A DNA stretch of 64,000 nt, from assembly GCA_944325625.1 (NCBI GenBank), contig CALVAP010000006.1, positions 1 through 64,000 on the forward strand. Reading direction: 5' to 3'. Under the pieces are notes generated by a model that saw only the letters and a list, made by a program, of their open reading frames with translations, made no database searches and was not told where the DNA came from. Below are positions 12,795 through 45,021 of the stretch, one piece after another; position 1 is the first letter of the stretch, and each line of letters opens with the position of its first letter. The DNA comes from Candidatus Gastranaerophilales bacterium. Its GTDB lineage: Bacteria; Cyanobacteriota; Vampirovibrionia; Gastranaerophilales; Gastranaerophilaceae. The translations under genes and the position numbers were made by a program.

Positions 12795-13136
12795 ATGTTC
12801 AAGCATCAGTTAGTACCAAATATCAATTTATTTGAAAGAATTCAACCGACAAAGTTGGATATGAATTCCGGCATTGATACAATGCGTTTACAAAGGATAG
12901 AAAAACCTGAGACGCAAGATTTTAAGGCGGTATTTTCCGGATTGGTGGAAAATCTGAATACGGAAATGAATGCTCCGGATAATTTAATGAAAGATGTCGC
13001 GATGGGTAATTCAAATGTAGATATTCACGATGTTATGACAGCGATGGCAAAAGCGGAATTAGGTGTCAATGTGGCAACCGGAATAACAGGAAAAATCATC
13101 CAAGCGTATGATAAAATTACACAAATTCAAGTATAA
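12795..13136 (+). CDS. fliE: flagellar hook-basal body complex protein FliE
   Basis: 113 residues. FliE joins the MS ring to the rod and is an early export substrate. The C-terminal half carries the family pattern (MGNSNVDIHDVMTAMAKAELGVNVATGI then KIIQAYDKI), preceded by a disordered N-terminus. AAGGAAGG precedes the ATG. Its position between flgC and fliF matches flagellar operons. Confidence 0.9.
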   Translation: MFKHQLVPNINLFERIQPTKLDMNSGIDTMRLQRIEKPETQDFKAVFSGLVENLNTEMNAPDNLMKDVAMGNSNVDIHDVMTAMAKAELGVNVATGITGKIIQAYDKITQIQV

Positions 13137-13138
13137 TG

Positions 13139-13167
13139 TTAACTTTTCATTAAAAATGTAGTATAAT
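13139..13167 (+). promoter_or_regulatory. possible internal promoter before fliF
   Basis: TTAACT (13139-13144), a 17-nt spacer and TATAAT (13162-13167), just after the fliE stop. It could give separate expression of fliF and downstream genes. Confidence 0.45.
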
Positions 13168-13190
13168 TTTCTCGGGAGAGATTGTATTTA

Positions 13191-14867
13191 ATGAATTTCC
13201 AACAGTTAATAAAAGACAGAAGAGTTCAGATTGGGATAGTAGCAGCGTTGGTGGTACTAATATTACTAAGCGTTGTTGTAGTTGCGTCAAACAAAAAAGA
13301 CGCCAAGACTCTCTCTCGGATAAAACAAGAAAGACCGCTAAAAGAAGATATAAAACTCTTGTCAACGGATAATATAGGTAAAGCAATAGAAATACAGGCT
13401 CTATTGGCAAGAGAAGGAATAACGGCAGCAAGAGAAACAGACGGTTCGAAGTCCGCAATAGTTCTTAAAAAAGGCGAATCTAATATGGGCGAGCGTGATA
13501 GAGCGCTTCTTGCCATAGTTAAAAGCGGTTTAATGGACCAAAACATGGGGTTGGAAATCTTTGACAAAGGAGATTTTACCTCAACAAAAGAAGATAAACG
13601 CATAAGGTTGGCAAGAGCTGTAAATGGTGAACTCGCAAGATTAATTAGAAGAATACCTCCGATTGAAAATGCATCTGTATTTGTTTCAATTCCGGAGCAA
13701 ACGATGTTTACATCGCAGCAAAAACCTGTGACGGCAACAGTACAAGTCACTATGCCAAGCGGAGATAAACTTGATCAAACAAAAGTAAAAGCGATTACCA
13801 ATTTGCTCTTAGGGTCGGTTACAGGCTTGGAAGCAAAAAATGTAACTATTTCCGATACAAATGGAACAGTCTATTCGAGTATAATAAATGCGTCAGATGA
13901 TATGCTTGCAAAACTCGAAGAAAATGACCGGTATATGGAAAATAAAGTTCGAGCTCAGTTGGATAGGCTTGTCGGAAAAGGGAATTATGTAGCCACGGTA
14001 AGTACGTTTTTAAGACAAGCACCGGTTGAAAAAGCCAGTATAATTTATGATCCTGAGTTAAAGACTTCAGTTAGTGAACAAACTTTTTCTGAGGGATTGG
14101 GAGATCAAACAAGAGATACTAATAAATCTATCAATGCAGTAAGTGTTTATCTGCCAAACGGTTTGCCCGGTGCGAATGCGGACTCTGCGCAGGATAGGAG
14201 TTACTCAAGGACAGCGAAAGAAACTCAGTATGGTGTTACAAAAACGCAAGTAAATGAGTATATGAGCGCAGGTGTAATAGAAGAGATATCAATAGCAGTA
14301 ACGCTGGAACAAGCTGCAATACCGGCTAATGTGACAATAGAAGAGTTAAAAGAGTTGTTGTCAAAGGCAGCAAGTCCAAAGGTAAGTCCGGAAAATGTTT
14401 CAATAGCATTTGCAGACTCTGTAGATCCGCTTTTGGCAGGCGATAGACCAGTAACGTTACCAAGACCGGATGAGACGGGTAATCCTTGGTGGATAGCAAT
14501 CGCGCTTATAGTAATTGGATTAGTAGGTGGTCTTGCATTTATATCCAAAAAGGTAAAATTGGCGCAAGAAAAACAAAGACAAGAACTCGAGGAGTTGCGT
14601 ACAAAATCACAGGATCAAGAGCGTCAGTTGAGAGATGTAAATTTGAAGGCAGCAGAATTGATAGAGAAACAATCACAGTTGGCGCAAGGTCTGTTGGAAC
14701 ATCAACAACAGCCGCAGCAAATTGCCCAAGTTCAGCAGCCGCAACCTCAGCCGATTCCTCAAGCTGCACCAATTACTGACGCAATTGGCGAGATAGCGTC
14801 AGAAGTTGAAGAGGTTGATGATGACGAAATGGTGGATAAGTTAAAAAGTTGGATAGAAAAGGCATAA
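13191..14867 (+). CDS. fliF: flagellar MS-ring protein FliF
   Basis: FliF builds the inner-membrane MS ring around the export gate. About 558 residues from ATG 13191, which follows GGGAGAG by ten bases (a TTG at 13182 is too close). A first membrane helix lies at about 13-30 (VQIGIVAALVVLILLSVVVV). It is followed by the ring-building secretin-like domains (GKAIEIQALLAREGI; ARAVNGELARLIRRIPPIENASVFVSIPE) and a long periplasmic part. A second membrane helix follows (WWIAIALIVIGLVGGLAF), then a coiled coil, a Gln/Pro-rich linker and an acidic C-terminal helix (DDDEMVDKLKSWIE). The C-terminal helix is where FliF normally binds FliG, implying a partner. Full flagellar architecture, not the short SctJ form. 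Confidence 0.92.
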   Translation: MNFQQLIKDRRVQIGIVAALVVLILLSVVVVASNKKDAKTLSRIKQERPLKEDIKLLSTDNIGKAIEIQALLAREGITAARETDGSKSAIVLKKGESNMGERDRALLAIVKSGLMDQNMGLEIFDKGDFTSTKEDKRIRLARAVNGELARLIRRIPPIENASVFVSIPEQTMFTSQQKPVTATVQVTMPSGDKLDQTKVKAITNLLLGSVTGLEAKNVTISDTNGTVYSSIINASDDMLAKLEENDRYMENKVRAQLDRLVGKGNYVATVSTFLRQAPVEKASIIYDPELKTSVSEQTFSEGLGDQTRDTNKSINAVSVYLPNGLPGANADSAQDRSYSRTAKETQYGVTKTQVNEYMSAGVIEEISIAVTLEQAAIPANVTIEELKELLSKAASPKVSPENVSIAFADSVDPLLAGDRPVTLPRPDETGNPWWIAIALIVIGLVGGLAFISKKVKLAQEKQRQELEELRTKSQDQERQLRDVNLKAAELIEKQSQLAQGLLEHQQQPQQIAQVQQPQPQPIPQAAPITDAIGEIASEVEEVDDDEMVDKLKSWIEKA

Positions 14868-14887
14868 ACTAAAATAGGGGGGATAAG

Positions 14888-15811
14888 TTGCCAATACCTG
14901 ATTTTGATTACAAAGCGTTTGCAACAAATTTGGCACAACAGGCATCAGCAGTTGTTCCGCCGGAGATTTCGAAGCCCGACAAGGATTACATAGTAAGCCT
15001 TGTTTTGAACTTTTGTAATATGTCAGGTGAGGCGCTGTATAATGATACGGAATACAAATATTCCGCTGATAACGCCTATATAATAACACAGTTAATAGGG
15101 GAGTGGACGTTCCACAAGGCAATAGACCTGATACATGGAAAAATTCCCAGACAGCATAGGGATAAAATACTTCAGCAGATAGCGTTCACTGTTTTTGAAA
15201 TATCGAAGCAGTGTATAAAAAGGAACATGCCACAGCCTGAAATAATAAGGGTTGTAGAGGCACAGGTAAAAAGAACTTGTACAAAAGCGTTAATGGATTT
15301 ACAAAAACGAGGGGCGTTAACAGCAGAGCAAGCAAGCAATGCTGCTAAAATGTCTAATCTGGATGATATGTCTCAACAGCAAGCCGGTGCAAACGCCAGT
15401 GATACAAAGCTGTTAAAACTTGTTTCTTTTGCAATGGTATTAAGAAGTATGCCGCAAGATAAAGTTCAAACAATAATAAACAAATTTGAAAAGGATGATG
15501 CAGATATTTTAAGGGAATATCTTAAGATGGATGATTTGGAGCATAAGCTTGATCAGGGTGTAATTTCAAAGTATCTTGATGAAATAAAGTCAAATATGCC
15601 TGCGAGAAATAAGGTATCAATGCCAAAAGTTATTGGTAAAATGAAGAAACTCATTAAGCCAAATAACAAAAAATTTGTAACAAAGCTATTTGAAGGTGAG
15701 CGAGATGCGCTTAAGAGATTTGTTTTTCCGGAGGACGGGGAGCAAGAGATAGTAACTCCGCGAATAGCAGATGTGGTTTGTAGGTATCTGGAAGAAAAAT
15801 TATCATGCTAA
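14888..15811 (+). CDS. protein at the fliG position, FliG not confirmed
   Basis: 307 residues, all helical by appearance, without membrane segments. It sits between fliF and fliH, where fliG (rotor/switch protein) normally is, and FliF has a FliG-binding-type C-terminus. However, I cannot find the usual FliG charged C-terminal motor motif. The second half has short repeats of a helical kind (VSFAMVLRSMPQDKVQTIINKF and KDDADILREYLKMDDLEHKL) that could match the FliG middle domain. It overlaps fliH by seven bases. It is either a very divergent FliG or a different adaptor that replaces it, as SctK/SctQ-type proteins do in injectisomes. Confidence 0.7.
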   Translation: MPIPDFDYKAFATNLAQQASAVVPPEISKPDKDYIVSLVLNFCNMSGEALYNDTEYKYSADNAYIITQLIGEWTFHKAIDLIHGKIPRQHRDKILQQIAFTVFEISKQCIKRNMPQPEIIRVVEAQVKRTCTKALMDLQKRGALTAEQASNAAKMSNLDDMSQQQAGANASDTKLLKLVSFAMVLRSMPQDKVQTIINKFEKDDADILREYLKMDDLEHKLDQGVISKYLDEIKSNMPARNKVSMPKVIGKMKKLIKPNNKKFVTKLFEGERDALKRFVFPEDGEQEIVTPRIADVVCRYLEEKLSC

Positions 15812-16521
15812 TAAGAAGGCGAAAAACTCAAAACGGTGATGAGCAAAATATAGAGAAAAAAGAAGAGATTTTCCCTGAACCTCAAGAGTCTGAAAATCAA
15901 GCGGCAAAGGAAGAAGAAGCTCAGATTTTTGACATAGATAATTTTGACTTTTTACAACGCGAAGAAAGAAGAAGAGGAGACAGGCGAAGAGGTTACAGAC
16001 GGATAGATGACAGAAATCTTGTGTCAAGGGCACAGTTGGAAGCTGCATCTATTAAAGAAGATGCTGTAAAAGAGGGATATAATCAGGGCTTGGCAAAGGC
16101 ACAGGAGGACATAAACTTTTTACGAGAAAGCATAAAAGACTTTTTTGCATATAAAGAAGAGGCGATGAAGGCTGTATCCGGAGATGTTTTAGAGATAGCA
16201 CTTGATGTTGCGCAAACAATCATTAAGAAGGAAGTAGAGCAGGACAAAGAAATTTTGCTTAACACAATAGTAGATATTCTTAAGTCCAATGCAAAAGCGG
16301 ATGAGCGAATAACATTGAAGGTTTCGCCAGATGACGCAGAATTTGTAAAGCTCTCGATTCCTCAAATGTTGTCAATTTCTCAAACAGAGGCTAAAATATC
16401 AGTAGTAGCTCAAGAGAATATTGATAAGGGGTCGGTAATTGTAGAAACATCAAGCGGAATAGTAGATGCGAGTTTTAAAACGCAGCTGGATGTTTTAAGG
16501 GAAGCGTTTAAGGGTATTTAA
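15805..16521 (+). CDS. fliH: flagellar export stator FliH (SctL family)
   Basis: 238 residues. FliH dimers hold and inhibit the export ATPase. The N-terminal 80 residues are highly charged (EERRRGDRRRGYRR), then comes a coiled coil with EGYNQGLAKAQEDI, typical of the FliH/SctL/V-ATPase E-subunit family. The C-terminal domain (VLEIALDVAQTIIKKEVEQD, later GSVIVETSSGIVDASFKTQLD) closely follows the family. The ATG overlaps the end of the preceding gene, indicating translational coupling. Confidence 0.88.
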   Translation: MLIRRRKTQNGDEQNIEKKEEIFPEPQESENQAAKEEEAQIFDIDNFDFLQREERRRGDRRRGYRRIDDRNLVSRAQLEAASIKEDAVKEGYNQGLAKAQEDINFLRESIKDFFAYKEEAMKAVSGDVLEIALDVAQTIIKKEVEQDKEILLNTIVDILKSNAKADERITLKVSPDDAEFVKLSIPQMLSISQTEAKISVVAQENIDKGSVIVETSSGIVDASFKTQLDVLREAFKGI

Positions 16522-16524
16522 GAA

Positions 16525-18636
16525 ATGGCAATGCCGCAACAAGGTGGAAACGGAAATATATTAAGTGAATTAGGGTTAGCCCTTTTCGTTTTGACGCTTG
16601 TTTTAATTTTGATAATCGAAATGCCGACTTGGATAATAAACTTTTCTATAAGTTTGAATATAGCAATAGGAATAACTCTGTTAATGATTTCGTTATATGT
16701 TCAAAAGCCGTTAGAGTTGGCTGCGTTTCCATCAATTATTTTGATAGGAACAATGTTTAGACTGGTATTGTCTATAGCATCGACCAGATTGATATTGGCA
16801 AAAGGTGATGCAGGAGAGGTAGTTGAGGCGTTTGGGACGTTTGTAACCGGTGGGAATCTGATTGTAGGATTTGTAATATTTGCGATAATTACGATTGTAC
16901 AATTTATGGTAATAACGAAAGGTGCAGAGCGTATAGCCGAAGTAGCGGCAAGGTTTGCATTGGATGCGATGCCCGGTAAGCAGATGACAATTGATGCGGA
17001 TTTTAACGCCGGATTAATATCACCTGAAGAAGCCGTAAGAAAACGTGAAGACTTGCAAAGAGAGTCTAGTTTATACGGTTCGATGGACGGTGCTATGAAG
17101 TTTGTAAAAGGTGATACTATAGCAGGTATCATCATTACGGTTATAAACATAGTAGGCGGTTTGGCAGTTGGTATGATAATGGAGAACATGCCTGCGGCTG
17201 ATGCGGTTTCAAAGTATACAACATTAACTGTAGGTGATGGCTTGTCGGCACAGCTACCGTCTTTATTGATGGCAATATCAGCTGGTATTGTAATGACTCG
17301 TTCGTCAGCACAAGGCAGTTCATTGGGTACTGATTTAGCCGGACAAATAATGGGTAAGCCCAAGAGTTTAATGTTGGCTTGTTTGTTTTTTGTATTGATA
17401 ATATTGAGCAGTCCGTTTACGGGTTTGCCTTGGTGGCCATTTGCCTTGTTTATAGTAATTATAGGACTTGCTTGGTTTACAGCGCAAGTCAATCAGGATG
17501 TAGCGGCGCAGTTGGGTCAACTCGATGCCGTTAAACAAAATATGCAGGATTTGGTTAATCCAAATAGGATGTATGAGCGATTGGGAGTAGATGTTTTAGC
17601 TCTGCAAGTTGGAACAGGTTTGTTAAGTATAGCGGATCCGGAACAAGATGGGCAGTTGTTGGCTAAAATTGCAGCTCTTAGACAACGTGTTACGGATGAA
17701 CTTGGTTTTATTATCCCGAATATAAGAATTATGGATTCCAGTGCACTGGACGCGAATGAATATGCTATATTGATTCGTAATAACAAGGTGGCGACCGGAT
17801 TTGTTTATCCGGGAAAAGTTATGGTGCTTGCAGATCAGTGGGATAGCTTGAATAAGCCTGTACCGCAGGATGCTATAGTTGGTTTAGATCCGACTTATCA
17901 AACTCAGGCTTATTGGGTTTCTAAAGATAGCATAAGTCCTGATGAAAAGATTTCACAAACTGAGCCGACAGATGTTGTTGTAACGCACTTACAAGAGAGT
18001 GTGAGAAAATATGTTGATGAAGTAATGACAAAAACTGATGTGCTTAAGCTTATGGAATTGGTGAAATCGCAAGACCCGACATTGGTTAATGACCTTGTCC
18101 CGACGATTATATCAACGAGTGATTTACGTAAGATATTTGTAAACTTAATTCGTGAGAGAGTATCGATTAAGGATATAATATTCATTTTTGAGCGGTTATG
18201 TGATTACGCCAGATTTTCAAAGGAACCTGATATACTTTCAGAAAGGTTAAGAGCGGCATTGGGTCGTCAGATATGTTTGACTCATGCAACACAAGATAAA
18301 GTTCTTTATGCACTTACATTGTCCAGTGAATGGGAAAAAACGTTGGATGACAGTTGTCAGCGTACGGAGCTGGGAACAATGTTTCTTTTAAATCCTTTGC
18401 AGGTGCAAGAATTAATTGAGATGTCAGCAACGGCGTTGATGCGGGCACATCAAAATATTGGTCGTGCGCCGGTAATTTTGTGTTCACCACGTATAAGGTT
18501 ACCGTTGTATCAACTTTTAGAACGGCATATTCCAACTATAGTAGTCATTTCATACAGTGAATTGATAACCGATATTAAAGTTGAGGCGGTGGATACGATA
18601 GGTGAGTCTTATATGTCGGAATATAACTTTGGCTAA
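16525..18636 (+). CDS. FHIPEP export gate protein, closer to SctV than to FlhA
   Basis: 703 residues. An N-terminal membrane domain with about eight helices is followed by a cytoplasmic ring domain from about residue 350. Family motifs are clear: FRLVLSIASTRLIL, LDAMPGKQMTIDADFN, VGDGLSAQLPSLLM. Several positions match injectisome SctV (LcrD/InvA) rather than flagellar FlhA: FRLVLS instead of FRLxLN, GGNLIVGFVIFAIITIVQF, TKGAERIAEVAARF instead of GAGRxAEVSARF, and MDGAMKFVKGD instead of MDGASKFVKGD. The second FHIPEP gene at 38392 has the FlhA forms at each site. No fliP/Q/R/flhB set accompanies this copy, so it must share the gate encoded at 40.5-43.5 kb or use genes outside the window. Confidence 0.9.
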   Translation: MAMPQQGGNGNILSELGLALFVLTLVLILIIEMPTWIINFSISLNIAIGITLLMISLYVQKPLELAAFPSIILIGTMFRLVLSIASTRLILAKGDAGEVVEAFGTFVTGGNLIVGFVIFAIITIVQFMVITKGAERIAEVAARFALDAMPGKQMTIDADFNAGLISPEEAVRKREDLQRESSLYGSMDGAMKFVKGDTIAGIIITVINIVGGLAVGMIMENMPAADAVSKYTTLTVGDGLSAQLPSLLMAISAGIVMTRSSAQGSSLGTDLAGQIMGKPKSLMLACLFFVLIILSSPFTGLPWWPFALFIVIIGLAWFTAQVNQDVAAQLGQLDAVKQNMQDLVNPNRMYERLGVDVLALQVGTGLLSIADPEQDGQLLAKIAALRQRVTDELGFIIPNIRIMDSSALDANEYAILIRNNKVATGFVYPGKVMVLADQWDSLNKPVPQDAIVGLDPTYQTQAYWVSKDSISPDEKISQTEPTDVVVTHLQESVRKYVDEVMTKTDVLKLMELVKSQDPTLVNDLVPTIISTSDLRKIFVNLIRERVSIKDIIFIFERLCDYARFSKEPDILSERLRAALGRQICLTHATQDKVLYALTLSSEWEKTLDDSCQRTELGTMFLLNPLQVQELIEMSATALMRAHQNIGRAPVILCSPRIRLPLYQLLERHIPTIVVISYSELITDIKVEAVDTIGESYMSEYNFG

Positions 18637-18656
18637 GGGAAAAGGGCTTTGTAAAA

Positions 18657-20006
18657 ATGCTTGAACAGTCAACGGAAAAGTCAATAGAGTATATGAAGCG
18701 AAGAGCGTATGAGATTACGCACAATACGCCTTTGTACCAGTATAAAGGGAGTGTATCAAAATTATTGGGCTTAACGGTAGAGGTAAAGTTACCGGGATTA
18801 AAAGTTGGAGATTTGTGTTTTATAGAGGATTATCAAGGAGAAAAGAAGGCCGCTGAAGTAGTAGCATTCAAGGGAGAAGCTGCTCAACTTCTTTTATTAT
18901 ATGATGGAGCAGGAATAGGACAGGGCAGCTTAGTATCAACTACGGGAAAGCCAATTACTGTTCCGGTTGGAGATTTTTTGTTGGGACGATTAATAAACCC
19001 ACTTGGAGAGCCGATAGACGGCAAACCATTAGACGTTTCTGATGCAAAATGGAGATGCATAGACGGACCGCCACCGGATGCATTTGAACGCCCGATTATC
19101 AAAGAAATGTTTTCAACAGGAGTAAGAGCTATTGACGCATGTATGACATTAGGCGGTGGGCAGCGTATGGGGTTGTTTGCAGGCTCCGGAGTCGGAAAAA
19201 GTACAATGCTTGGGATGATAGCAAGAAACTCTGATGCTGATGTCAATGTAGTTGCGCTAATTGGAGAACGTGGCAGGGAGGTCAAGGAGTTTGTAGAGGA
19301 TTCTCTGGGTGAAAAAGGTATGGCGAAATCGGTTCTTGTTTGTTCAACTGGTGATCAGCCGCCGTTAATTCGTATGAAATGTTTGCAGACGGCAACTGCT
19401 ATATGTGAATATTTTCGCGATCAAGGCAAGAAAGTATTTCTGATGACGGACACAGTAACAAGATGTGCAATGGCAGGTCGTGAGGTTGGTTTGTCGATTG
19501 GAGAACCACCGACAATGAAGGGTTATCCGCCCTCTATATTCTCATGGTTGCAAAAAGTTCTTGAACGTACAGGGAATTCTGAGCGTGGGTCTGTGACTGC
19601 TCTATATACGGTATTAATGGAGGGGGATGATATAAATGACCCCATAGTTGATACGGTTAGAGGTATTGTAGACGGACATATTTTCTTATCAAGAAAAGTG
19701 GCTGAAATGAACCATTATCCGGCAATAGATGTTTTGGGCAGTATATCTAGGCTTATGTCATCAATTGCGACACCGGAACATAAAGAGGCGGCAGGAAAAA
19801 TGCGAAAACTTATGGCTCTTTATCGCGATAATAAAGACCTTATAGATGTCGGAATGTATCAGGCGGGTTCTAACCCGAGATTAGATATTGCAATAGAGAT
19901 GATGCCCCAAATTAATGCGTTTTTGCAACAACGTGTTGAAGACAGTGTTACTATGGAAACGACTATATCAACATTAATTACTATGATGGAGAATGTTGAT
20001 ATATAG
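18657..20006 (+). CDS. fliI: type III export ATPase FliI (SctN family)
   Basis: 449 residues. Hexameric ATPase that unfolds and delivers export substrates. A beta-barrel N-terminal domain is followed by Walker A GSGVGKST at 176-183, ALIGERGREVKEFVEDSLG, a Walker B region ending in LMTDTVTR, and GEPPTMKGYPPSIF, then RGIVDGHIFLSRKVAEMNHYPAIDVL. Some positions are flagellar-like (MGLFAGSGVGKS), others injectisome-like (ERGSVTALYTVLMEGDD), so it fits the mixed character of this operon. It is the last clear gene of the operon; no fliJ follows. Confidence 0.92.
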   Translation: MLEQSTEKSIEYMKRRAYEITHNTPLYQYKGSVSKLLGLTVEVKLPGLKVGDLCFIEDYQGEKKAAEVVAFKGEAAQLLLLYDGAGIGQGSLVSTTGKPITVPVGDFLLGRLINPLGEPIDGKPLDVSDAKWRCIDGPPPDAFERPIIKEMFSTGVRAIDACMTLGGGQRMGLFAGSGVGKSTMLGMIARNSDADVNVVALIGERGREVKEFVEDSLGEKGMAKSVLVCSTGDQPPLIRMKCLQTATAICEYFRDQGKKVFLMTDTVTRCAMAGREVGLSIGEPPTMKGYPPSIFSWLQKVLERTGNSERGSVTALYTVLMEGDDINDPIVDTVRGIVDGHIFLSRKVAEMNHYPAIDVLGSISRLMSSIATPEHKEAAGKMRKLMALYRDNKDLIDVGMYQAGSNPRLDIAIEMMPQINAFLQQRVEDSVTMETTISTLITMMENVDI

Positions 20007-34928: not shown

Positions 34929-35936
34929 TTATGCTTTTGTTGTTTGTTCAAACTCTGCAATTTCTTTAAGTAATTCAGGTAATATTTCTCTAAAGCTTTG
35001 TACAATTTGAGGGTCAAATTGTTTTCCTGCAAGTTTTTCGAGTACCTGCATTGCATCTTCCGGTTTCATCGCTTCACGATAGGCTCTATTTGAGACCATA
35101 CCGTCATATGCGTCGGCTATCGCTATTATTCTCGAGCCGATTGGGATTTCTTCACCTTTTATTCCGTATGGATATCCGTTTCCATCAAAGTGTTCGTGGT
35201 GATATTTTATTATTGTTATTACATCTTTAAGCTGTTTTATATCTTCGAGAATTCTTACACCATGATCAACGTGTGATTTAATTTCTTGAAATTCTTCATC
35301 TGTAAGTTTTTCTGTTTTTAGCAGTACATCATCGGAAACCCCAATCATTCCTATATCATGCAGCAGACCTGCAAGTTCTATCTTTCCGTAATCTGCGTCG
35401 CTCAAATTCAGCTTTTTCGCTATTTTTAATGAATAATATGTAACTCTTCTGCTTCTGCCTAATGTATAAGAATCCTTGGCATCAAGAGCTTCTATAATTG
35501 CGCGAATTGTCCCTGAAAAAAGTTCTTTTAAGTCGCTAATTAGTACTTCATTATCTTTTTTTAATTGGAAGTATTCCAGACCTGCTTCTACCACAAGCTC
35601 AAGTTCTGCTGGGTTAAAGGGTTTTTTTATGTAGCGATATATTTTTGCTTCGTTTATTGAGCCTATTAGTATTGTTATGTCGGAGTAGGCTGTAACCAGA
35701 ATTCTTACGGTTTCGGGATAGTTCTCATATACGTGCTTAAGTAACTCGACCCCGTCCATTTCAGGCATTTTATGGTCTGATAAAATCAAATGAAACTGTT
35801 GTGTTTTCATAAGTTCTATCGCATCTAATGGAGACGTCGTTTTTACAATGTCATACTTCCCCCTTAGAGTACGATATAATAACATTAAATTATTTTCTTC
35901 ATCATCTACGAGTAAAATTTTATACTTATCGTTCAT
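34929..35936 (-). CDS. response regulator with intact HD-GYP domain
   Basis: 335 residues from ATG 35936, which overlaps the kinase gene by 11 bases; a longer start at 35969 is possible. The receiver has VDDEENN and phospho-acceptor Asp in LILSDHKMPEMDG. The HD-GYP part has YTLGRSRRV, HD in GLLHDIGM, KSHVDHG, and YHHEHFDGNGYPYG, so catalysis of c-di-GMP hydrolysis is expected. One deviation is the first conserved position, which lacks the His of HSxRV (GRSRRV), though other ligands remain. It is the last gene of the operon that begins with fliP, so kinase signals there would adjust c-di-GMP for the neighbouring PilZ protein. Confidence 0.92.
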   Translation of the reverse strand: MNDKYKILLVDDEENNLMLLYRTLRGKYDIVKTTSPLDAIELMKTQQFHLILSDHKMPEMDGVELLKHVYENYPETVRILVTAYSDITILIGSINEAKIYRYIKKPFNPAELELVVEAGLEYFQLKKDNEVLISDLKELFSGTIRAIIEALDAKDSYTLGRSRRVTYYSLKIAKKLNLSDADYGKIELAGLLHDIGMIGVSDDVLLKTEKLTDEEFQEIKSHVDHGVRILEDIKQLKDVITIIKYHHEHFDGNGYPYGIKGEEIPIGSRIIAIADAYDGMVSNRAYREAMKPEDAMQVLEKLAGKQFDPQIVQSFREILPELLKEIAEFEQTTKA

Positions 35937-37554
35937 CTTCTGCTCTTTCTTCTTGTGCATCTTTTTCAAATTTTATGGGTAATGTGAGTATAAATTTTGT
36001 TCCCTTATTCGGTTCGGTTTTTATCCTTATGTCTCCGTGGTGGTCTTTTATTACTCTGTAACTGATAGACATTCCAAGCCCTGTTCCTTTACCAACCGGT
36101 TTGGTTGTGAAAAACGGATCAAATATGCGTTCTGCCGTTTCTCTATCCATGCCTTTTCCATTATCTTCAAATTCTATTATAACATTTTCACCTTCATGTT
36201 TGGTTCTTATGTATACGTCACCTTTGTCTTCTATTGCATAAAATGCGTTATCTAATATGTTCATAAAGACTTGATTAAGTTGTCCACCGTAACTTTCAAC
36301 CAAGGGTAAATTTTCTTCGTATTCTTTATGAATTTCTATGCGATTTTTATATTTCGAATGTAAAATATTTAATGTTGTATCAATTTCTTTGGCTATGTTA
36401 ATGCTGCTAAGAACTCTTTCTTCCATTCTTGAAAAGTTCTTTAGGTCCATGATTATATTCTTTGTTCTTTCTGTCCCTTCTCTACAGCTGTTTATCAAGG
36501 CTCCTAAGTCTTCTTTAAGAAAGGCTAAATCTATATCATTTTTTATCTGTTCAATTTCCTTTTTATGTTCTTCAAGTAACTCACCTTCGTATTCCCCATA
36601 TTTATCTATCAGCATTATTAAATCATTAGTATAATTGGTAAGATGAATTAAGTTTCCATATATAAAGTTGACGGGATTGTTTATTTCGTGTGTTATTCCC
36701 GCAACCAATTCCCCTAATGATTTCATCTTTTCTGAATGAACCATCATTGCCTGTGTGCTTTGTAGTTCTTTATATGCTTTGTTTAATTGTTTTGTTCTTT
36801 CTGCTACTTTATTTTCCAATGATGTATACATATCTCTTAAGTTTTCCGCCATTGTATTGTAAGAGTCTACCAATTTGTCTATTTCTTCATAGTTGAAGTA
36901 TTCTATGCGGTGGTTAAAATCACCTTCCGCAAATCTTTTTGAACCTTCAGAAAGTTTTTCTATGGGTTTTATTACTATCTTTGTTAATCTGTGCGACAAA
37001 AAGAGTCCTAAAATAATAGAAAATATGACTATATAACTCATGTTATTAATAAAGTTTTCGATGTTTTGGTTTAGTAAAGCCTTAGAGTAAAATCCGACGT
37101 ACATTGTTGTGTCTTTTTTTGCCCCAGTTACGTAGTATGTTCCTGTGTTTCCATGCGGAGTGTAGGTGTCTATGTCTTTTGCTTTTATTCCGTTTAGTAT
37201 TTGTGTTGAAAAAATCTTTCCCTTTAATGCTGGTATCGATGAGTATTCTATTTTGTTATTGGTATTATTTTTAACTACAAAGTATGCTATCAGGTCGCTG
37301 TTTATGGCGTTATTTACTACATTTTGTATATTTGAATAGTTTTTTTTATCTACGGCATTTCCTAAAATTTGAAAAAGAGAGGTGGAGAGCGCTCGATTTA
37401 TAGAACTGGACTGGGTATCCACTTTTATGGTTATTTCTTTCAAAAAAAGCATTACATATGCTGCAATACATAATGTTATTATTCCTATTAGCACGGACGA
37501 TATTAGTGCCATATGAGTGCTTAACTTTATTTTGGAAGTGTGTTTTTCGCTCAT
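35926..37554 (-). CDS. membrane sensor histidine kinase
   Basis: 542 residues. Two membrane helices (about 15-33 and 173-190) enclose a periplasmic sensor of about 140 residues. A HAMP domain follows (PIEKLSEGSKRFAEGDFNHRI), then a coiled coil, a HisKA-type helix with histidine in GITHEINNPVNFIYGN, and a HATPase domain with QVFMNILDNAFYAI, EDNGKGMD and GKGTGLGMSI. It belongs to the NtrB-like class with the HEINNP form. Its partner is the overlapping HD-GYP regulator. Position in the flagellar export operon suggests it controls motility or export through c-di-GMP. Confidence 0.93.
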   Translation of the reverse strand: MSEKHTSKIKLSTHMALISSVLIGIITLCIAAYVMLFLKEITIKVDTQSSSINRALSTSLFQILGNAVDKKNYSNIQNVVNNAINSDLIAYFVVKNNTNNKIEYSSIPALKGKIFSTQILNGIKAKDIDTYTPHGNTGTYYVTGAKKDTTMYVGFYSKALLNQNIENFINNMSYIVIFSIILGLFLSHRLTKIVIKPIEKLSEGSKRFAEGDFNHRIEYFNYEEIDKLVDSYNTMAENLRDMYTSLENKVAERTKQLNKAYKELQSTQAMMVHSEKMKSLGELVAGITHEINNPVNFIYGNLIHLTNYTNDLIMLIDKYGEYEGELLEEHKKEIEQIKNDIDLAFLKEDLGALINSCREGTERTKNIIMDLKNFSRMEERVLSSINIAKEIDTTLNILHSKYKNRIEIHKEYEENLPLVESYGGQLNQVFMNILDNAFYAIEDKGDVYIRTKHEGENVIIEFEDNGKGMDRETAERIFDPFFTTKPVGKGTGLGMSISYRVIKDHHGDIRIKTEPNKGTKFILTLPIKFEKDAQEERAEDER

Positions 37555-37570
37555 TTTTTTCCCTTACTTT

Positions 37571-37786
37571 TTACTTTTTCCTTCCTCTCGGGTTATCCAG
37601 TATTGCCCCTGTAAGATGCCCCAGATATCCCATTATCAAGGCTGCTGGTAACACCCGAATGAGTACAAATTTTAGAGTAGTTACATCTACAGTCATTGTT
37701 TGTATTAGATTCATTCCCAATAATACGATTATGGAAAAGGATGCTAATATTCCTGATAATTTCTTTGAATAAGTTAATTCCGCCAT
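37571..37786 (-). CDS. small two-helix membrane protein
   Basis: 71 residues with two hydrophobic segments (ILASFSIIVLLGMNLIQ and FVLIRVLPAALIMGYLGHLTGAIL) and a basic end PRGRKK. Its start overlaps the stop of the PilZ gene by one base, and it ends 16 bases before the kinase gene, so it is translated within this operon. Function unknown; it might anchor or couple the PilZ protein or the kinase. Confidence 0.75.
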   Translation of the reverse strand: MAELTYSKKLSGILASFSIIVLLGMNLIQTMTVDVTTLKFVLIRVLPAALIMGYLGHLTGAILDNPRGRKK

Positions 37787-38376
37787 TATTTGTTTGTGTT
37801 CTCCATGTATTTTCTGAAACAGAATTGAGCTAGAGTTATTCTATCCCTGTTTGATATCATCTTGAACTTTCCGGAAGTTGCATAGGTATTTGTTTCTGTT
37901 TTATCTTGTCTTATCGGTGCAAATATTCCGGTTATTATTTGCTTTTTATCTATCGTTAAACTGAAGCTGTAATCTTCACTCATTGATAATTCTTTTTGTG
38001 AAACAACTTTCATTCCTCCTGCTGATAAATCTGTTATGAGGACATCAATTTGTTGGGTTGATGTTTTTAGCTGTATATTCGCATTAAATTCTATTCTTGT
38101 GTATTCTCTTCTTTGGAGTGTTTTTTGTGTTATAGGTAATGTCAGTTTATAGAGATTATCTTCAATTTTACTTATTTTGGACTTGAAGTAGATTATCCCA
38201 TCTTCAGCCAAAGTAAAGCATTCTGCCTTGCCGGTTATATCTTTGTCTGATATTGGCTGTTCGGGCGTAATGCACAAAAACTCACCGCAACTATCTTTAA
38301 CTCTTACACTGCAGGCAGCTTCCACGTCTGTTGGTACTATTTTTATTATTTGGTTCTCTTTGAATGTTGATAACAT
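37786..38376 (-). CDS. PilZ-domain c-di-GMP receptor (YcgR-like)
   Basis: 196 residues. An N-terminal flagellar-brake-like beta domain (about 1-85) is followed by a C-terminal PilZ domain with both c-di-GMP motifs, RxxxR in LQRREYTRIEF and DxSxxG in ITDLSAGGMKV. This two-domain layout is that of YcgR/FlgZ, which slows flagellar motors on binding c-di-GMP. It directly follows flhA by 15 bases on the same strand. Likely job: linking c-di-GMP to the flagellum or export gate. Confidence 0.9.
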   Translation of the reverse strand: MLSTFKENQIIKIVPTDVEAACSVRVKDSCGEFLCITPEQPISDKDITGKAECFTLAEDGIIYFKSKISKIEDNLYKLTLPITQKTLQRREYTRIEFNANIQLKTSTQQIDVLITDLSAGGMKVVSQKELSMSEDYSFSLTIDKKQIITGIFAPIRQDKTETNTYATSGKFKMISNRDRITLAQFCFRKYMENTNK

Positions 38377-38391
38377 TTTTAATTTTCCTTT

Positions 38392-40500
38392 TTATATGTT
38401 TGTTCTTGTTGGAGCTGTTTTTACTACTCCAACCGATTTTGCTTTTGTATTATTACTTATCTCATTATACGACATAACAAAAATTTGTGGATAGGTTCTT
38501 TCTATTAACCGTCTAAAAGGTAGTCTTATTGGTGATGAGCAAAGTATTACCGGTTGTGTTCCACTGTTTTTTATTGCCTTTTCAAGTTCATAATTCAACC
38601 CGTCAAGAAGTTTTCTTGTAAAATCAGGGTCTAAAGTAAGACTTTGACCGTCAGGACTTATTCCTTGCGCTATAATATTTTCCACATCCGGTGCAAGTGT
38701 TATTGCCAGAAGCTCTCCTGTGTCTGAGAGGTTTTGTTTGCAGATTGTTCTTGATAATGCCTGTCTGACTTGTTCTGTTAGAAAATCAGCATTTTTAGAT
38801 ACTTTAGACTGCAAACTCATTACTTCTAAAATAGTTCTCAAGTCCCTTATGGAAACTCGTTCTTTTAGCAGATTTTGAATTACCTGTTGGACTTCTGCTG
38901 TTGTTATATCTTTCATCAGATCGTTCACATAATCTTCTGAAAATTCTTTTTTTAAATTATCTATAAGTTGAGTTATATCTGCACGTGAAAGTATTTCCGC
39001 AGCATTTTTTTTGATAACTTCTGTCAGGTGTGTTGAGATTACTGCGGAGGGGCTTACTACTGTATAGCTGTTCATTTCCGCATAATCTTTATCTTTTTCT
39101 TCAATCCATAATGCGGGAAGTCCAAAAGCAGGTTCTATTGCACTTATTCCTTTAAGTTCCGGATCATCAGCTCCCCCGAGTGCATTCATCGCAAGACTCC
39201 TGTCCGGATAAACTTCACCATGTTCTATTGGGACACCTTTGAGGTTTATTTGATATTGGTTTGGCGGTAGTTGCAAGTTATCCCTTACTCTGATAGAGGG
39301 CAGAACTAAACCCAATTCCAGTGCTGTTTGACGACGAATTTGTGCGATTCTTTCCAATAAATCCCCGCCTTGTTCCACATTTATTAGTGGTACTAGTCGA
39401 TAGCCTATTTCTATTTCTATTGTTTCTACGTTCAAAAGCTCCATTACGCTTTCTTTGGTTATTTTTTTGCGTTTTTTTCCTGTTTTTTCTGCAATGACCT
39501 TTTGTTCTTCAGCTACTTTTGCAGCTTCTTCTTCTGCTTTCTTTTCCTTGTTCTTTTTAAGTGCAAACCAGCCTACGCCTGCTCCAACCAGAAAAAACGG
39601 CAGTGTTGGCATTCCGGGAATTATTCCCAGTAACAAGAGCAACCCTGAAACAACTCCCAAGACTATTGGGTTTGAAAACATTTCCATTTTGATGTCATCT
39701 GAAAGAGATGAATCCTGACCGCTTGCACGGGTTATTATCAAACCTGTTGCGAAGGAAATTAACAGTGCCGGAATTTGTGATACCAACCCATCTCCGACTG
39801 TTAGTATTGTATAGGTGCTCAGCGCATTGAGGATATCCATTTTTAGCTGCCATACGCCTATGATTAATCCGCCAAAAATATTTATTACGGTTATTACTAT
39901 ACCCGCAGTTGCATCCCCTTTTACAAATTTTGAGGCACCATCCATTGTTCCGTAAAAATCTGCTTCTCTTTCTAATTTGCGTCGCCTTGCTTTTGCTTGC
40001 TCTTCGTTTATCAATCCGGAGTTTAGATCGGCGTCTATCGATAATTGTTTACCAGGCATGCTGTCTAATGTAAATCTTGCCGATACTTCTGCGACTCTCC
40101 CAGCTCCGCCTGTTATAACCATAAAGTTTATTAATACCAGTATCGCAAATATTATAAATCCGACTACGTAGTTTCCTCCTACAACAAATTCTCCAAACGA
40201 GCTTATAACCTGTCCGGCTTCAGCTTTTAGCAGAATCAATCTTGTCGAACTTACGTTTAATCCAAGCCTAAATATTGTTGATATTAGCAATATAATCGGA
40301 AAGGATGAATATTCCAGCGGTTCTTTTGTAAATAAGCAAACTAAAAGAATTATTACGGATAGTGAAATATTCAGAGTAAGTAAGACGTCCAATAGCTGCG
40401 GTGGAAGCGGTAAAATCATCATTGATATGATAATTACCAAACCAACGGCAAGAATTACGTCATTATTCTTAAATAGTGTTGCTAGATTAGACAAATTCAT
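38392..40500 (-). CDS. flhA: flagellar export gate protein FlhA
   Basis: 702 residues, an eight-helix membrane domain plus a large cytoplasmic ring domain. Motifs match flagellar FlhA: STIFRLGLNVSSTRLIL, FVVGGNYVVGFIIFAIL, GAGRVAEVSARFTLDSMPGKQ, IDADLNSGLI, READFYGTMDGASKFVKGD and VGDGLVSQIPALL. A charged linker near 325-350 (KKNKEKKAEEEAAKVAEEQ) is followed by the ring domain, which recognises export chaperones and substrates. Sits after flhB, as usual. This is one of two FHIPEP genes in the window; the other (16525) has SctV-like residues. Confidence 0.95.
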   Translation of the reverse strand: MNLSNLATLFKNNDVILAVGLVIIISMMILPLPPQLLDVLLTLNISLSVIILLVCLFTKEPLEYSSFPIILLISTIFRLGLNVSSTRLILLKAEAGQVISSFGEFVVGGNYVVGFIIFAILVLINFMVITGGAGRVAEVSARFTLDSMPGKQLSIDADLNSGLINEEQAKARRRKLEREADFYGTMDGASKFVKGDATAGIVITVINIFGGLIIGVWQLKMDILNALSTYTILTVGDGLVSQIPALLISFATGLIITRASGQDSSLSDDIKMEMFSNPIVLGVVSGLLLLLGIIPGMPTLPFFLVGAGVGWFALKKNKEKKAEEEAAKVAEEQKVIAEKTGKKRKKITKESVMELLNVETIEIEIGYRLVPLINVEQGGDLLERIAQIRRQTALELGLVLPSIRVRDNLQLPPNQYQINLKGVPIEHGEVYPDRSLAMNALGGADDPELKGISAIEPAFGLPALWIEEKDKDYAEMNSYTVVSPSAVISTHLTEVIKKNAAEILSRADITQLIDNLKKEFSEDYVNDLMKDITTAEVQQVIQNLLKERVSIRDLRTILEVMSLQSKVSKNADFLTEQVRQALSRTICKQNLSDTGELLAITLAPDVENIIAQGISPDGQSLTLDPDFTRKLLDGLNYELEKAIKNSGTQPVILCSSPIRLPFRRLIERTYPQIFVMSYNEISNNTKAKSVGVVKTAPTRTNI

Positions 40501-40517
40501 TGACCGCTATTTTTACC

Positions 40518-41594
40518 TCATACTCCACTCTTATTTTTATTGTACACGAAAGCAAGGATTTCGGCTACTGCTACATACAATTCAGCCGGAATTATTGCAT
40601 CAAGTTTTACTAATTTATATAAAGCCCTTGCCAATGGAGGGTTTTCTACTATAGGTACATTATTATGCCTTGCGACTTCCCTTATTTTGAATGCCATAAA
40701 ATCTACACCTTTTGCAACAACTTTTGGTGCCGGTGCTTCGGTTTTATCATATTTGATTGCAACGGCATAATGAGTTGGGTTTGCTACAACTACGTCTGAT
40801 TTTGGAATAGCTGACATCATTTTTTGCTGTGCAAATTGCATTTGTGCAGATTTTATTTTGGACTTAATTAATGGATCCCCTTCTGCGTTTTTCCATTCAT
40901 CTTTGACTTCTTGTTTTGTCATTTTTATTGACTTGTTGTATTCGTAATCTTGATACTTCTTGTCTATAAAACCTATTATTAGCATAGCAATACAAATATT
41001 TATTATCATTTGGGTTAGAACAGACCCCAGTACGGCAAAACCTGTGTTAATATCTGCACCCATTAGTCCGTAGAGTTCATCTTTTCTTGATAGTACTGCA
41101 GAAAATCCGCAATATGCTACTACCGCCATTTTGGCAAGAGATTTTGCCAGTTCCATTAAGTTTTTTGGTGAGAAGGGGTTTAGGGTCTTTTTTAATCCAT
41201 TTATGATTTGGGACGGCGAGAGCTTGTCCAGTGAGGGTTTTAGCTTTTTTATCGCAAACAATGAGCCTACTTGCAGTCTTAATGCTACTGCAGTTACTGC
41301 TGCAAGTGCTAATAAAAATGGAAGCAGAATGTCCCCTGCACTTTTGGCAAAAGGTACCAATATTGCTATAATGTCATCTGTGGGAATTTCTTTTGGGGTA
41401 AGGTGGGTTACTGTTTGGTACATAAGCTCTTTGGTATTTGTTATTATTTGGGATGCCAGAAAAAGCATCAAAGCACACCCTGCACTTATTGTTATTGCAG
41501 AGTTTAAGTCTTGACTTTTGGAAATATTTCCTTTTTCTCGTTCTTTTTCCCGCCGTCGCGGTGTTGCTTCTTCTGTTTTGTTATCCGCCGCCAT
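40518..41594 (-). CDS. flhB: flagellar export gate and specificity switch protein FlhB
   Basis: 358 residues. Four membrane helices and a cytoplasmic domain with the self-cleaving motif NPTH at 272-275 (VVVANPTHYAVAIKYD), which changes export from rod/hook to filament-type substrates. The basic N-terminus (EEATPRRREKEREKGN) is typical. 17-18 base gaps to fliR and flhA show one operon. Intact motif indicates a working switch, although hook and filament genes are not in the window. Confidence 0.95.
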   Translation of the reverse strand: MAADNKTEEATPRRREKEREKGNISKSQDLNSAITISAGCALMLFLASQIITNTKELMYQTVTHLTPKEIPTDDIIAILVPFAKSAGDILLPFLLALAAVTAVALRLQVGSLFAIKKLKPSLDKLSPSQIINGLKKTLNPFSPKNLMELAKSLAKMAVVAYCGFSAVLSRKDELYGLMGADINTGFAVLGSVLTQMIINICIAMLIIGFIDKKYQDYEYNKSIKMTKQEVKDEWKNAEGDPLIKSKIKSAQMQFAQQKMMSAIPKSDVVVANPTHYAVAIKYDKTEAPAPKVVAKGVDFMAFKIREVARHNNVPIVENPPLARALYKLVKLDAIIPAELYVAVAEILAFVYNKNKSGV

Positions 41595-41612
41595 TGGCGT
41601 TTCTCCTCCTTA

Positions 41613-42401
41613 TTAGCCCATAAACAGTTTGAGTATTCCTGCCATGTATTTCTCTATTGCATACGCCAAATAAGAGATTGTCGGTGCAATAAACATTATT
41701 ATCAAAATTAGTCCCAGCCCTATCTTAAATGGTAATGCAACCATGAATATATTCATTTGCGGCATCATTTTTGCGACAAAACCCATAAGCACTTCGCTTA
41801 TAAATAAAACACAAAAAATAGGGAGTATGATTTGAAATGAAATTACAAACATATGTGAAAAAAGCATTATTACCTGTTTTACAAGAGCTGGCGTGAATAT
41901 AAATTCCAATCCCGGTGGTATAGCAGCAAAACTCTTGTAAATCGATATGAATAGCCAATGGTGCGCATTCAATGCTAAAAAGACTATAGTTGCAACATAA
42001 ACATAAACTTGTCCTATTATAGGTGTTTGTTCATTTGATGTTGGGTCTAGAACTTGTCCCATTGTTATACCCATTTGTATTCCAAGGGTTTGCCCGGCTA
42101 TTTGGACCGCAGAAAAGATGAAGCGTGCTATAAATCCGATTAAAAATCCAACGAAAAATTCTTTAACGAGAAACAACGTAAGTTCAATCATGTTGTTTGG
42201 TATTGATAAAGCCGAAGTCTTGATAACAACAGGGTACATGATAAAGGCCACAGTCGCGCACAGCCAGATTTTTGCCTGGGTTGGAATTGGGTAAGTCGAA
42301 AAAAGTGGTGCTGATGCTATCATTCCTGATAATCTGGTAAAAACTATTATAAAAATTATTATACTATTTGGTGATAAAAGTGATAATAAGTCCTGCGCCA
42401 T
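41613..42401 (-). CDS. fliR: flagellar export gate protein FliR
   Basis: 262 residues, mostly membrane helices. FliR with FliP and FliQ forms the helical core pore of the gate. Recognised by FTRLSGMIASAPLFSTYPIPTQAKI, EFFVGFLIGFIARFIFSAVQIAGQTLGIQMG and ILPIFCVLFISEVLMGFVAKMMPQMNIFMVALP (read as separate segments). Located between fliQ and flhB as in other bacteria. Confidence 0.94.
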   Translation of the reverse strand: MAQDLLSLLSPNSIIIFIIVFTRLSGMIASAPLFSTYPIPTQAKIWLCATVAFIMYPVVIKTSALSIPNNMIELTLFLVKEFFVGFLIGFIARFIFSAVQIAGQTLGIQMGITMGQVLDPTSNEQTPIIGQVYVYVATIVFLALNAHHWLFISIYKSFAAIPPGLEFIFTPALVKQVIMLFSHMFVISFQIILPIFCVLFISEVLMGFVAKMMPQMNIFMVALPFKIGLGLILIIMFIAPTISYLAYAIEKYMAGILKLFMG

Positions 42402-42421
42402 TCGTTTTGCTCCTCAATCTG

Positions 42422-42691
42422 TCAATGTATTAACGCCGGAATTTGTGCGAAAAGTTCGTTTGTTCGCTCAATAAAAACATTTACCATCCATGGTAGAAGA
42501 ATAATAAGTGTTAATACGCAGGCAATAATCTTTGGTACAAAAGTTAGTGTTGATTCTTGTATTTGTGTTACTGTTTGAAAAATACTTATTATAAGCCCCA
42601 CAACTATTGCAACCAACAATACCGGTGACATCATTTGAAGCATCAGTATCAATGTAGTTTGAGTTAGTGATAGAATGACTGTTTGTTCCAT
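42422..42691 (-). CDS. fliQ: flagellar export gate protein FliQ
   Basis: 89 residues, two membrane helices (LMLQMMSPVLLVAIVVGLII; FVPKIIACVLTLIILLPWM) joined by the conserved cytoplasmic loop SIFQTVTQIQESTLTF. Length and motif are standard. It lies 12 bases after fliP. Confidence 0.95.
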   Translation of the reverse strand: MEQTVILSLTQTTLILMLQMMSPVLLVAIVVGLIISIFQTVTQIQESTLTFVPKIIACVLTLIILLPWMVNVFIERTNELFAQIPALIH

Positions 42692-42703
42692 TTTTATCCT
42701 TTA

Positions 42704-43465
42704 TCAGGTTATAAAGCCTTCAATCAATGATTTAGTAATTAAGTACCAACCATCAATCATTACAAAAAGTATAAGTTTGAACGGAGTTGCAATTGTTGCA
42801 GGAGGCAAAAACAGCATCCCCATCGAAACAAGTATACTCGATACTACGATATCAATTACCAAAAACGGTAAAAATATTACAAAGCCGATTTTAAAAGATG
42901 TTTTTAGTTCACTTAAAACAAATGCAGGAATAAGAATATAATTTTCCACCTCACTTGCATTTTTGGGCTTTTCCATTTTTGCCATGTTAATAAAGAGTCC
43001 AAGTTCTTTTTCACCGGTTTGTTTAAGCATAAACATTCTTAGTGGCTGCATTGCCTTTTCAAGTGCAACTTCTTGAGTGATTTGATTTTTCATATAGGGT
43101 TGGATGGCTGTTTCATTAATTTTATTTATTGTCGGGGACATTACAAAAAATGTTAAAATTATTGCCAACCCTGCAAGGACTTGATTTGGCGGAAGGGTTG
43201 TTGTTCCGATTGCTTGACGAGTTAGTGCCAATACAATAACTATCCTTATGAAGGCGGTTGTCATAATAATTATGCTCGGTGCCAAAGTTAGTATTGTCAA
43301 AAGCACCAGAATTTGTACACCTTGTGTAAATTCTTGCGGGGTATTTGCTGTTTGCATTCCTATGTTTATGTTTGGAAATGCTATTGCACAAAAAGCAGGC
43401 ATGCTTTGCATTATTGTGTAAAACACCGCCAAAATCGTCCCCAACAGTACGTTTCTATGTTTCAT
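42704..43465 (-). CDS. fliP: flagellar export gate protein FliP
   Basis: 253 residues. A signal-type first helix is followed by periplasmic sequence, then the conserved core TLTLAPSIIIMTTAFIRIVIVL, LPPNQVLAGLAIILTFFVMSP, the long loop with PLRMFMLKQTGEKEL, and LIPAFVLSELKTSFKIGFVIFLPFLVIDIVVSSIL (read in pieces), ending IDGWYLITKSLIEGF. First gene of the operon running to 34929. FliO, which helps FliP assemble, is not seen. Confidence 0.95.
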   Translation of the reverse strand: MKHRNVLLGTILAVFYTIMQSMPAFCAIAFPNINIGMQTANTPQEFTQGVQILVLLTILTLAPSIIIMTTAFIRIVIVLALTRQAIGTTTLPPNQVLAGLAIILTFFVMSPTINKINETAIQPYMKNQITQEVALEKAMQPLRMFMLKQTGEKELGLFINMAKMEKPKNASEVENYILIPAFVLSELKTSFKIGFVIFLPFLVIDIVVSSILVSMGMLFLPPATIATPFKLILFVMIDGWYLITKSLIEGFIT

Positions 43466-44228: not shown

Positions 44229-44290
44229 TTTTCACAGTAACATTATATTCACAAAATATTTTTTAATTTAAAAATAGCGCAAAATATTTT

Positions 44291-44944: not shown

Positions 44945-45021
44945 TCTAATATGATAATATCTTCTAATTTCAATCAAAACTTTAAATCACGCCTTCTTTT
45001 TCGTCATTAAGACTGTATCCT

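Follow-up and report, generated by a model that had tools for sequence, protein, structure and literature searches.

We analysed a stretch of 64,000 nucleotides (nt) from a Gastranaerophilales genome (positions 1 to 64000 of contig C6; the genome comprises 1.70 Mb in 17 contigs), hereafter the window, and a run of nine genes that it carries on the minus strand: fliP-fliQ-fliR-flhB-flhA1-PilZ-SMP-HK-RR* (Table 1). SMP stands for small membrane protein, HK for histidine kinase and RR* for a response regulator with an HD-GYP domain. With moderate confidence, we propose that flagellar export genes are joined here to a four-part input cassette for cyclic di-GMP (c-di-GMP), PilZ-SMP-HK-RR*, in which RR* would read the signal, SMP would dock the output and the PilZ protein would brake the motor. 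The observations behind this proposal are the gene order in the window, the co-occurrence of SMP with the flagellum, the adjacency of SMP and HK, a double substitution in RR*, a PilZ protein of the MotI/YcgR type, and an HK-RR* pair that is separable from the rest.

The first of the cassette genes to be considered is SMP, which tracks the flagellum. The window encodes two FlhA proteins, and both types were sought in 146 genomes of the larger order Gastranaerophilales, whose members, being relatives, are not independent. FlhA2 is full-length in the window (16525-18636, plus strand), matches TIGR01398 with 676 bits, under the cut-off of 772, and is about 37% identical to FlhA1-type proteins. FlhA2-type matches (about 720 bits) occur in nearly all genomes, FlhA1-type matches (817-891 bits) in 51. 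Flagellin was found in 54 genomes, i.e. all 51 with FlhA1 plus G009, G020 and G095, and an additional FliP and an additional export ATPase co-occur with FlhA1 with few exceptions. Therefore, the nine-gene operon belongs to the flagellum, and FlhA2 to a second, flagellum-independent export system. A 24-member SMP profile clearly matched 52 genomes (E at most 1.8e-11), the next-best having E 7.8e-4 or worse. We did not count matches with E above 1e-10 (in G041, G055 and G117, plus second hits; E 7.8e-4 to 0.01). SMP is present in all 51 FlhA1 genomes but in only one of the 95 others (FlhA1 × SMP contingency table: 51, 0, 1, 94). The sole FlhA1-negative genome with SMP, G020, is 66% complete and flagellin-positive. 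The co-occurrence also holds where SMP is not adjacent to flhA1. In genus g17 the losses of FlhA1 and SMP go together, and PilZ-HK-RR* is retained.

Proteins of the SMP family have 71-127 residues and two hydrophobic stretches, the second with a GxxxG motif whose glycines (G56, G60) are invariant in two alignments (34/34 and 24/24). The tail is variable among relatives and almost absent in the window species. Conserved short motifs in this cytoplasmic tail differ between lineages (e.g. LLIDDLL, AYEIPSMF, ITLQELNEKL; L058, L069, L071 and others), and they look as if they were binding sites for lineage-specific partners. The window SMP has no Pfam match, and a scan of 24 members yielded scattered weak hits only, the best (E 1.4e-4, to PF14045) in two of them. 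No solved structure matched in a profile search of the PDB (best E 0.77), and a relationship to TatA (2mn7, E 0.8) was discarded as a chance match. A FliO-like role of SMP in export was also considered as a possibility; FliO (PF04347) itself is present in the second export system.

The second line of evidence concerns RR*, whose HD-GYP domain is unambiguous (PF13487, HD_5, 151 bits against a cut-off of 27.2). In PmGH, an HD-GYP enzyme of solved structure, the mutations H189A and K225A are reported to essentially abolish hydrolysis, and GYP mutations are not; H189 is a metal ligand and K225 the lysine of HDxGK (PMC4159591). We compared these positions in 54 RR* sequences: those of the 51 genomes in which a profile search found RR*, plus L003, L004 and L005, leaving out L001 (identical to G087), L002 (cut before RR*) and L006 (identical to G132). 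The position of H189 (R161 in the window) is occupied by Arg in 53 and Lys in one, and that of K225 (M197) by Met in 53 and Ile in one. The single deviant, from G134, differs at both positions together. In contrast, both canonical residues are retained in all 21 comparison proteins, 11 of the RRHD2 type (including RRHD2 of the window) and 10 from outgroups. The host genome encodes eight HD_5 proteins, and among the seven with readable cores the Arg/Met pair occurs only in RR*. In a maximum-likelihood tree of 75 rows, all RR* fall on one side of a single branch (support 100/98). A class-level search matched outgroup genomes of family f8 at 302-374 bits, i.e. at the level of the paralogues and not of RR*, and the residue check of such matches covered 10 sequences only. 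Three of the eight HD_5 proteins of the genome lie within 28 kb around both export clusters (8301-9671, 27151-28272 and 34929-35969).

The first-pass annotation had the operon encode c-di-GMP breakdown. Since all 54 RR* carry replacements at two positions where mutation to alanine inactivates PmGH, such an activity is doubtful, and we rejected it as the default reading. Much of the domain is nevertheless intact. The other metal ligands are conserved (H193, H222, H246, H247 and D275 in 54/54, D194 in 52/54 with Asn in two), as are the GYP motif, its Tyr255, and Ile264 (54/54). Basic residues occupy the substrate sites R284 (Arg314 equivalent; 48 Arg, 6 Lys) and R287 (Lys317 equivalent; 52 Arg, 2 Lys), and the receiver Asp is kept in 54/54. 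These remaining ligands, the GYP motif and the strong HD_5 match would also suit a working phosphodiesterase with an altered metal site, in which HK triggers local breakdown and thereby unloads the PilZ brake; many HD-GYP enzymes are described as using two metals rather than three (PMC4159591). We consider this unlikely given the joint loss of two essential residues in every RR* and their retention in every comparison protein, to which the two Asn at D194 add. The simplest reading of the sequences is that a phosphodiesterase lost catalysis once and was afterwards retained throughout the order, its fold and ligand surface preserved. A complex of PmGH with c-di-GMP was captured with only the G-site iron present (PMC4159591), and by analogy it is plausible that RR* binds c-di-GMP without cutting it.

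We then concentrated on the PilZ protein, which has an N-terminal barrel domain followed by the PilZ domain; G007 and G013 (f7) have a 121-residue form without the N-terminal domain. Its c-di-GMP motif, RxxxR plus [DN]xSxxG, is intact in the window and in 49 of 52 loci, with R90 and R94 conserved in 27/27. A profile search of the PDB retrieved MotI/YpfA (5vx6, E 5.5e-10) and also chains of the MrkH/YcgR type. The structural model (predicted local distance difference test, pLDDT, 87) gave the same picture in Foldseek, with MotI 5vx6 first (E 4.4e-10, 207 columns, probability 1.00) and YcgR 5y6f fourth (E 2.5e-8). The fold resembles that of the motor brakes MotI and YcgR, hence the model makes rotation a likelier target of the PilZ protein than export. 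Of the direct control of export or rotation that had been suggested, control of export specifically finds no support here; reception of c-di-GMP beside flhA, suggested with it, holds, both for the intact motif and for the gene order described below. The host genome has nine GGDEF matches, seven of them strong, with the GGEEF motif read in three, and can therefore make c-di-GMP. A PilZ domain match was also seen within a 1606-residue open frame (G000:C4:316809-317072).

HK has the architecture expected of a kinase with an external sensor, as had been claimed, and the modelled sensor is extracytoplasmic. Its phospho-acceptor His motif is present in 54/54 and the N-box matched a regular expression in 50/54. 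The sensor is highly variable, with a mean column identity of 30% over 29 N-terminal regions. Its model (pLDDT 82) had no PDB match at E <= 0.001 by Foldseek, and the weak matches to the extracellular domain of WalK (E 0.051, probability 0.93) and to KinD (E 0.042) are only a hint of a Cache-type fold.

How conserved is the association between these genes and the export gate? We took the surroundings of flhA1 in all 51 FlhA1 genomes, the window included, and labelled open reading frames (ORFs) by profiles of the window proteins. Some loci stop at contig ends (e.g. G131, G026), and misassigned ORF starts (HK of L052 and L078) shift gaps by tens of bases. PilZ-SMP lies directly behind flhA1 in 36 of the 51 genomes. 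HK-RR* follows in 24 of these 36, and the remaining 12 have no RR* anywhere. In one of the 15 genomes without PilZ-SMP behind flhA1 (G131) this is due to a contig break, with PilZ-SMP on another contig. The gene flhB is at most 3 kb upstream of flhA1 in 39/51 (contig ends account for a few of the other 12), and genus g14 keeps flhA1-PilZ-SMP-HK-RR* without fliPQR-flhB upstream. Therefore, the cassette is linked to flhA1 and not to the whole export gate.

This linkage is what one would expect if the cassette gated export through FlhA, with PilZ or SMP binding FlhA and throttling secretion, since flhA1 is the one flagellar gene adjoining PilZ-SMP in 36 of the 51 genomes, even in genera with fliPQR-flhB elsewhere. 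We regard this as very unlikely. The PilZ relatives of solved structure are motor brakes, YcgR is reported to act on MotA and FliG (PMC10140304), and the cassette is located away from flhA1 in families f2, f3, f6 and part of f4.

The profile search found RR* in 37 of the 51 FlhA1 genomes and in 14 of the 95 others. Of the 51, 24 have HK-RR* linked to flhA1 and 13 have it at another place in the genome; it was not found in the remaining 14, of which G028 lacks RR* only because the contig ends after HK. The idea of a conserved operon of gate and signalling genes is thus rejected, because the order holds in only part of Gastranaerophilales. The order that placed the signalling genes under the gate operon is present here, and for PilZ-SMP it extends to most flhA1 genomes, but the genomes do not bear out that HK-RR* is necessarily tied to the gate: in relatives the signalling genes lie apart from the gate genes for HK-RR*, and in part for PilZ-SMP. 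In ten of the 14 FlhA1-negative cassettes, PilZ precedes HK by 14-94 nt without an intervening SMP. Three more (G016, G123, G125) have no PilZ at the cassette, and G020 has SMP. These 14 holders include g20, g22 and G134, as well as G089 and G095, two genomes of g17, a genus in which the operon is otherwise complete.

Such scatter might mean that the shared transcript is a packaging accident: PilZ would then be a regular brake of the MotI/YcgR type and SMP, unrelated to it, a structural protein of the flagellum (e.g. an export-gate or stator helper), with HK-RR* as a passenger. The unlinked, missing or flagellum-independent HK-RR* pairs are compatible with this, as are the 12 genomes in which PilZ-SMP stays behind flhA1 without RR*. 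However, SMP immediately precedes HK in all 37 loci with both as ORFs, and by match coordinates also in G003 and G032; in G030 the distance is 492 nt because the HK frame is broken. The adjacency persists in 14 genomes with the cassette away from flhA1, i.e. G020 and the 13 FlhA1-positive genomes with a distant RR*, some of which also have PilZ before SMP. RR* follows HK within -44 to +41 nt in 51/51 loci where both were found. Hence, we judge a packaging accident improbable.

Under the cassette reading, HK would sense an extracytoplasmic cue and phosphorylate RR*. The latter would no longer destroy c-di-GMP but act as a phosphorylation-switched reader or scaffold, coupled to the c-di-GMP-loaded PilZ brake. 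SMP would be the inner-membrane adaptor that docks this output at the flagellar base, resulting in slower motor rotation. In lineages without a flagellum, SMP would be lost and PilZ-HK-RR* would serve another target, perhaps type IV pili, as in the RpfG-GGDEF-PilZ system of Xanthomonas; type IV pilus motors are encoded by a termite-gut relative (PMC5877343). The retention of PilZ-HK-RR* without a flagellum fits such a second target.

Several points weigh against this reading. All protein interactions in it are inferred, and the putative docking role of SMP is drawn from its co-occurrence and position. Fisher values overstate the evidence, related genomes not being independent. The loss of the active site is deduced from one structure, and the altered metal centre might still cut c-di-GMP. 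Three of the 52 PilZ proteins (f3: G015, G028, G030) carry NxGxxG instead of [DN]xSxxG. PilZ is directly upstream of SMP in 42 of the 52 SMP-positive genomes, yet (counting cassette PilZ genes only) it also occurs in 10 FlhA1-negative cassettes, and the other 10 SMP-positive genomes have no recognisable PilZ beside SMP. Finally, 14 FlhA1-positive genomes have no detected HK-RR*, so SMP and PilZ must also work without this pair. A bolder version of the cassette reading is possible, and we put it forward only tentatively. RR* would be the founder of a class of c-di-GMP receptors: a single conversion at the base of Gastranaerophilales would have made a phosphorylation-gated reader out of an HD-GYP enzyme, with the positive charge of the active site moved from Lys225 to position 189 and the G-site ligands and substrate-binding arginines kept. 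SMP would be a new flagellum-specific membrane adaptor plugging this reader and the PilZ brake into the flagellar base. Upon loss of the flagellum the adaptor alone would be dropped and the readers reused.

The run of nine minus-strand genes, described initially as having gaps of 20 bases or overlaps, was verified in full, from the fliP ATG at 43465 to the regulator stop at 34929. The gaps are 12 nt (fliP-fliQ), 20 (fliQ-fliR), 18 (fliR-flhB), 17 (flhB-flhA), 15 (flhA-PilZ) and 16 (SMP-HK), and PilZ and SMP overlap by 1 nt. RR* has a likelier ATG start at 35936, overlapping HK by 11 nt, and an alternative longer frame from a TTG at 35969, overlapping it by 44 nt. Promoter-like sites in a consensus scan were at chance level (35, against a mean of 33.0 and sd of 6.6 in shuffles); a single predicted transcript is therefore likely. 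Terminator-like sites numbered 12, against 6.1 in shuffles, with none at the operon end. Divergent from fliP, the plus strand at 43560-45564 encodes three tandem paralogues of about 180-222 residues, the first without Pfam match. L001 has two such paralogues and L002 three, with only 20-36% identity to those of the window.

Table 1. Genes of the flagellar operon and features used for comparison in the window.
Feature	Position	Strand	Evidence or remark
fliP1, flagellar export gate	42704..43465	-	PF00813 260 bits; TIGR01103 above cut-off
fliQ1	42422..42691	-	PF01313; TIGR01402 above cut-off
fliR1	41613..42401	-	PF01311; TIGR01400 above cut-off
flhB1	40518..41594	-	PF01312; TIGR00328 above cut-off
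flhA1, flagellar FlhA	38392..40500	-	PF00771 866 bits; TIGR01398 849 bits (cut-off 772)
PilZ protein, MotI/YcgR-type two-domain c-di-GMP receptor (R90..R94, DLSAGG)	37786..38376	-	PF07238; PDB profile and Foldseek
SMP, 71-residue two-helix membrane protein, invariant GxxxG (G56, G60)	37571..37786	-	Alignments and 146-genome profile search
HK, sensor histidine kinase: variable extracytoplasmic sensor, HAMP, HisKA, HATPase_c	35926..37554	-	Pfam, alignments
RR*, Response_reg and HD_5, two catalytic residues absent (R161, M197, numbered from ATG 35936)	34929..35936	-	Pfam, residue alignment
RRHD2, RR* paralogue with canonical HD-GYP residues	27151..28272	-	PF13487; canonical His/Lys; comparison, outside operon
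Second type III export cluster: FliE-like, FliF-like, FliG-position protein without family, FliH, FlhA2, FliI	12795..20006	+	Comparison, outside operon

The second export system continues elsewhere in the same genome with a FliMN_C protein and FliO-FliP2-FliQ2-x-FliR2 (L040:7682-11785). FlhA2 is full-length in nearly all 146 genomes, though not in the top matches of G045 and G121. A minimum of one FliP and one export ATPase were each found in 145/146 genomes, including those without flagellin. Similar gene sets have been described as partial flagella (PMC4040986); their conservation across the order suggests instead a working, non-flagellar machine. The genome also encodes, on C13, a 488-residue protein corresponding to the cytoplasmic part of FlhA without the membrane half (L041:8191-9654; PF00771 positions 321-655, E 6e-49). 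Such proteins seem to be widespread, as most of the order's genomes show additional, weaker FHIPEP matches. In G006 (family f6), SMP-HK-RR* is convergent onto fliR2-fliQ2-fliP2 of the second export system, with 7 nt between RR* and FliR2 (L152:7018-12732).

If the cassette reading is true, RR* would provide a clade-wide example of a c-di-GMP hydrolase turned reader, and the automatic annotation as phosphodiesterase would be corrected for a widespread gut lineage. SMP would be a new small protein tracking the flagellum in 146 genomes, maybe a plug between c-di-GMP signalling and the motor. Among the literature matches listed, no paper joins Melainabacteria/Vampirovibrionia with PilZ or HD-GYP. 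Inactive HD-GYP regulators are already known from the sources retrieved (Bd1817, NosR, and HdgB of Streptomyces), and so are PilZ brakes. As far as the literature found shows, what is new is the fixed replacement by Arg/Met in a domain that retains GYP, the family of SMP proteins and its co-occurrence with the flagellum, and the assembly into one cassette.

Parts of the cassette resemble known systems in some respects. The brakes MotI (DgrA/YpfA) and YcgR are likewise two-domain PilZ proteins with the c-di-GMP motif. Here, however, the protein is encoded with a two-transmembrane protein, and usually with a two-component pair, it is kept in 10 genomes without flhA1, and its action on the motor is predicted. 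Bd1817 of Bdellovibrio has an HD-GYP fold without activity, as predicted for RR*, but lacks the Tyr of GYP (PMC4159591), which RR* always keeps. NosK/NosR of Burkholderia pseudomallei also pair a kinase with a receiver regulator whose degenerate HD-GYP domain affects swimming (PMC12570481), and among NCBIfam models RR* matches NosR (NF053512) best (297.3 bits, under the cut-off of 400). Yet NosR is described as having lost both HD and GYP (HG-GTP; PMC12570481), whereas RR* keeps both and lost the preceding His and following Lys; there is no NosP among the nine operon genes. By analogy, the nearest working model is RpfC/RpfG-GGDEF-PilZ (XC_2249)-PilT/PilU of Xanthomonas (PMC3749722). It has in common a kinase, a receiver-HD-GYP regulator with GYP kept, and a PilZ adaptor steering a motility motor. 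RpfG is reported to be an active phosphodiesterase (PMC3749722), whereas RR* has substitutions at catalytic positions. Our system further differs in the adjacency of its genes, in the additional small membrane protein and in the machine to which it is linked, a flagellum.

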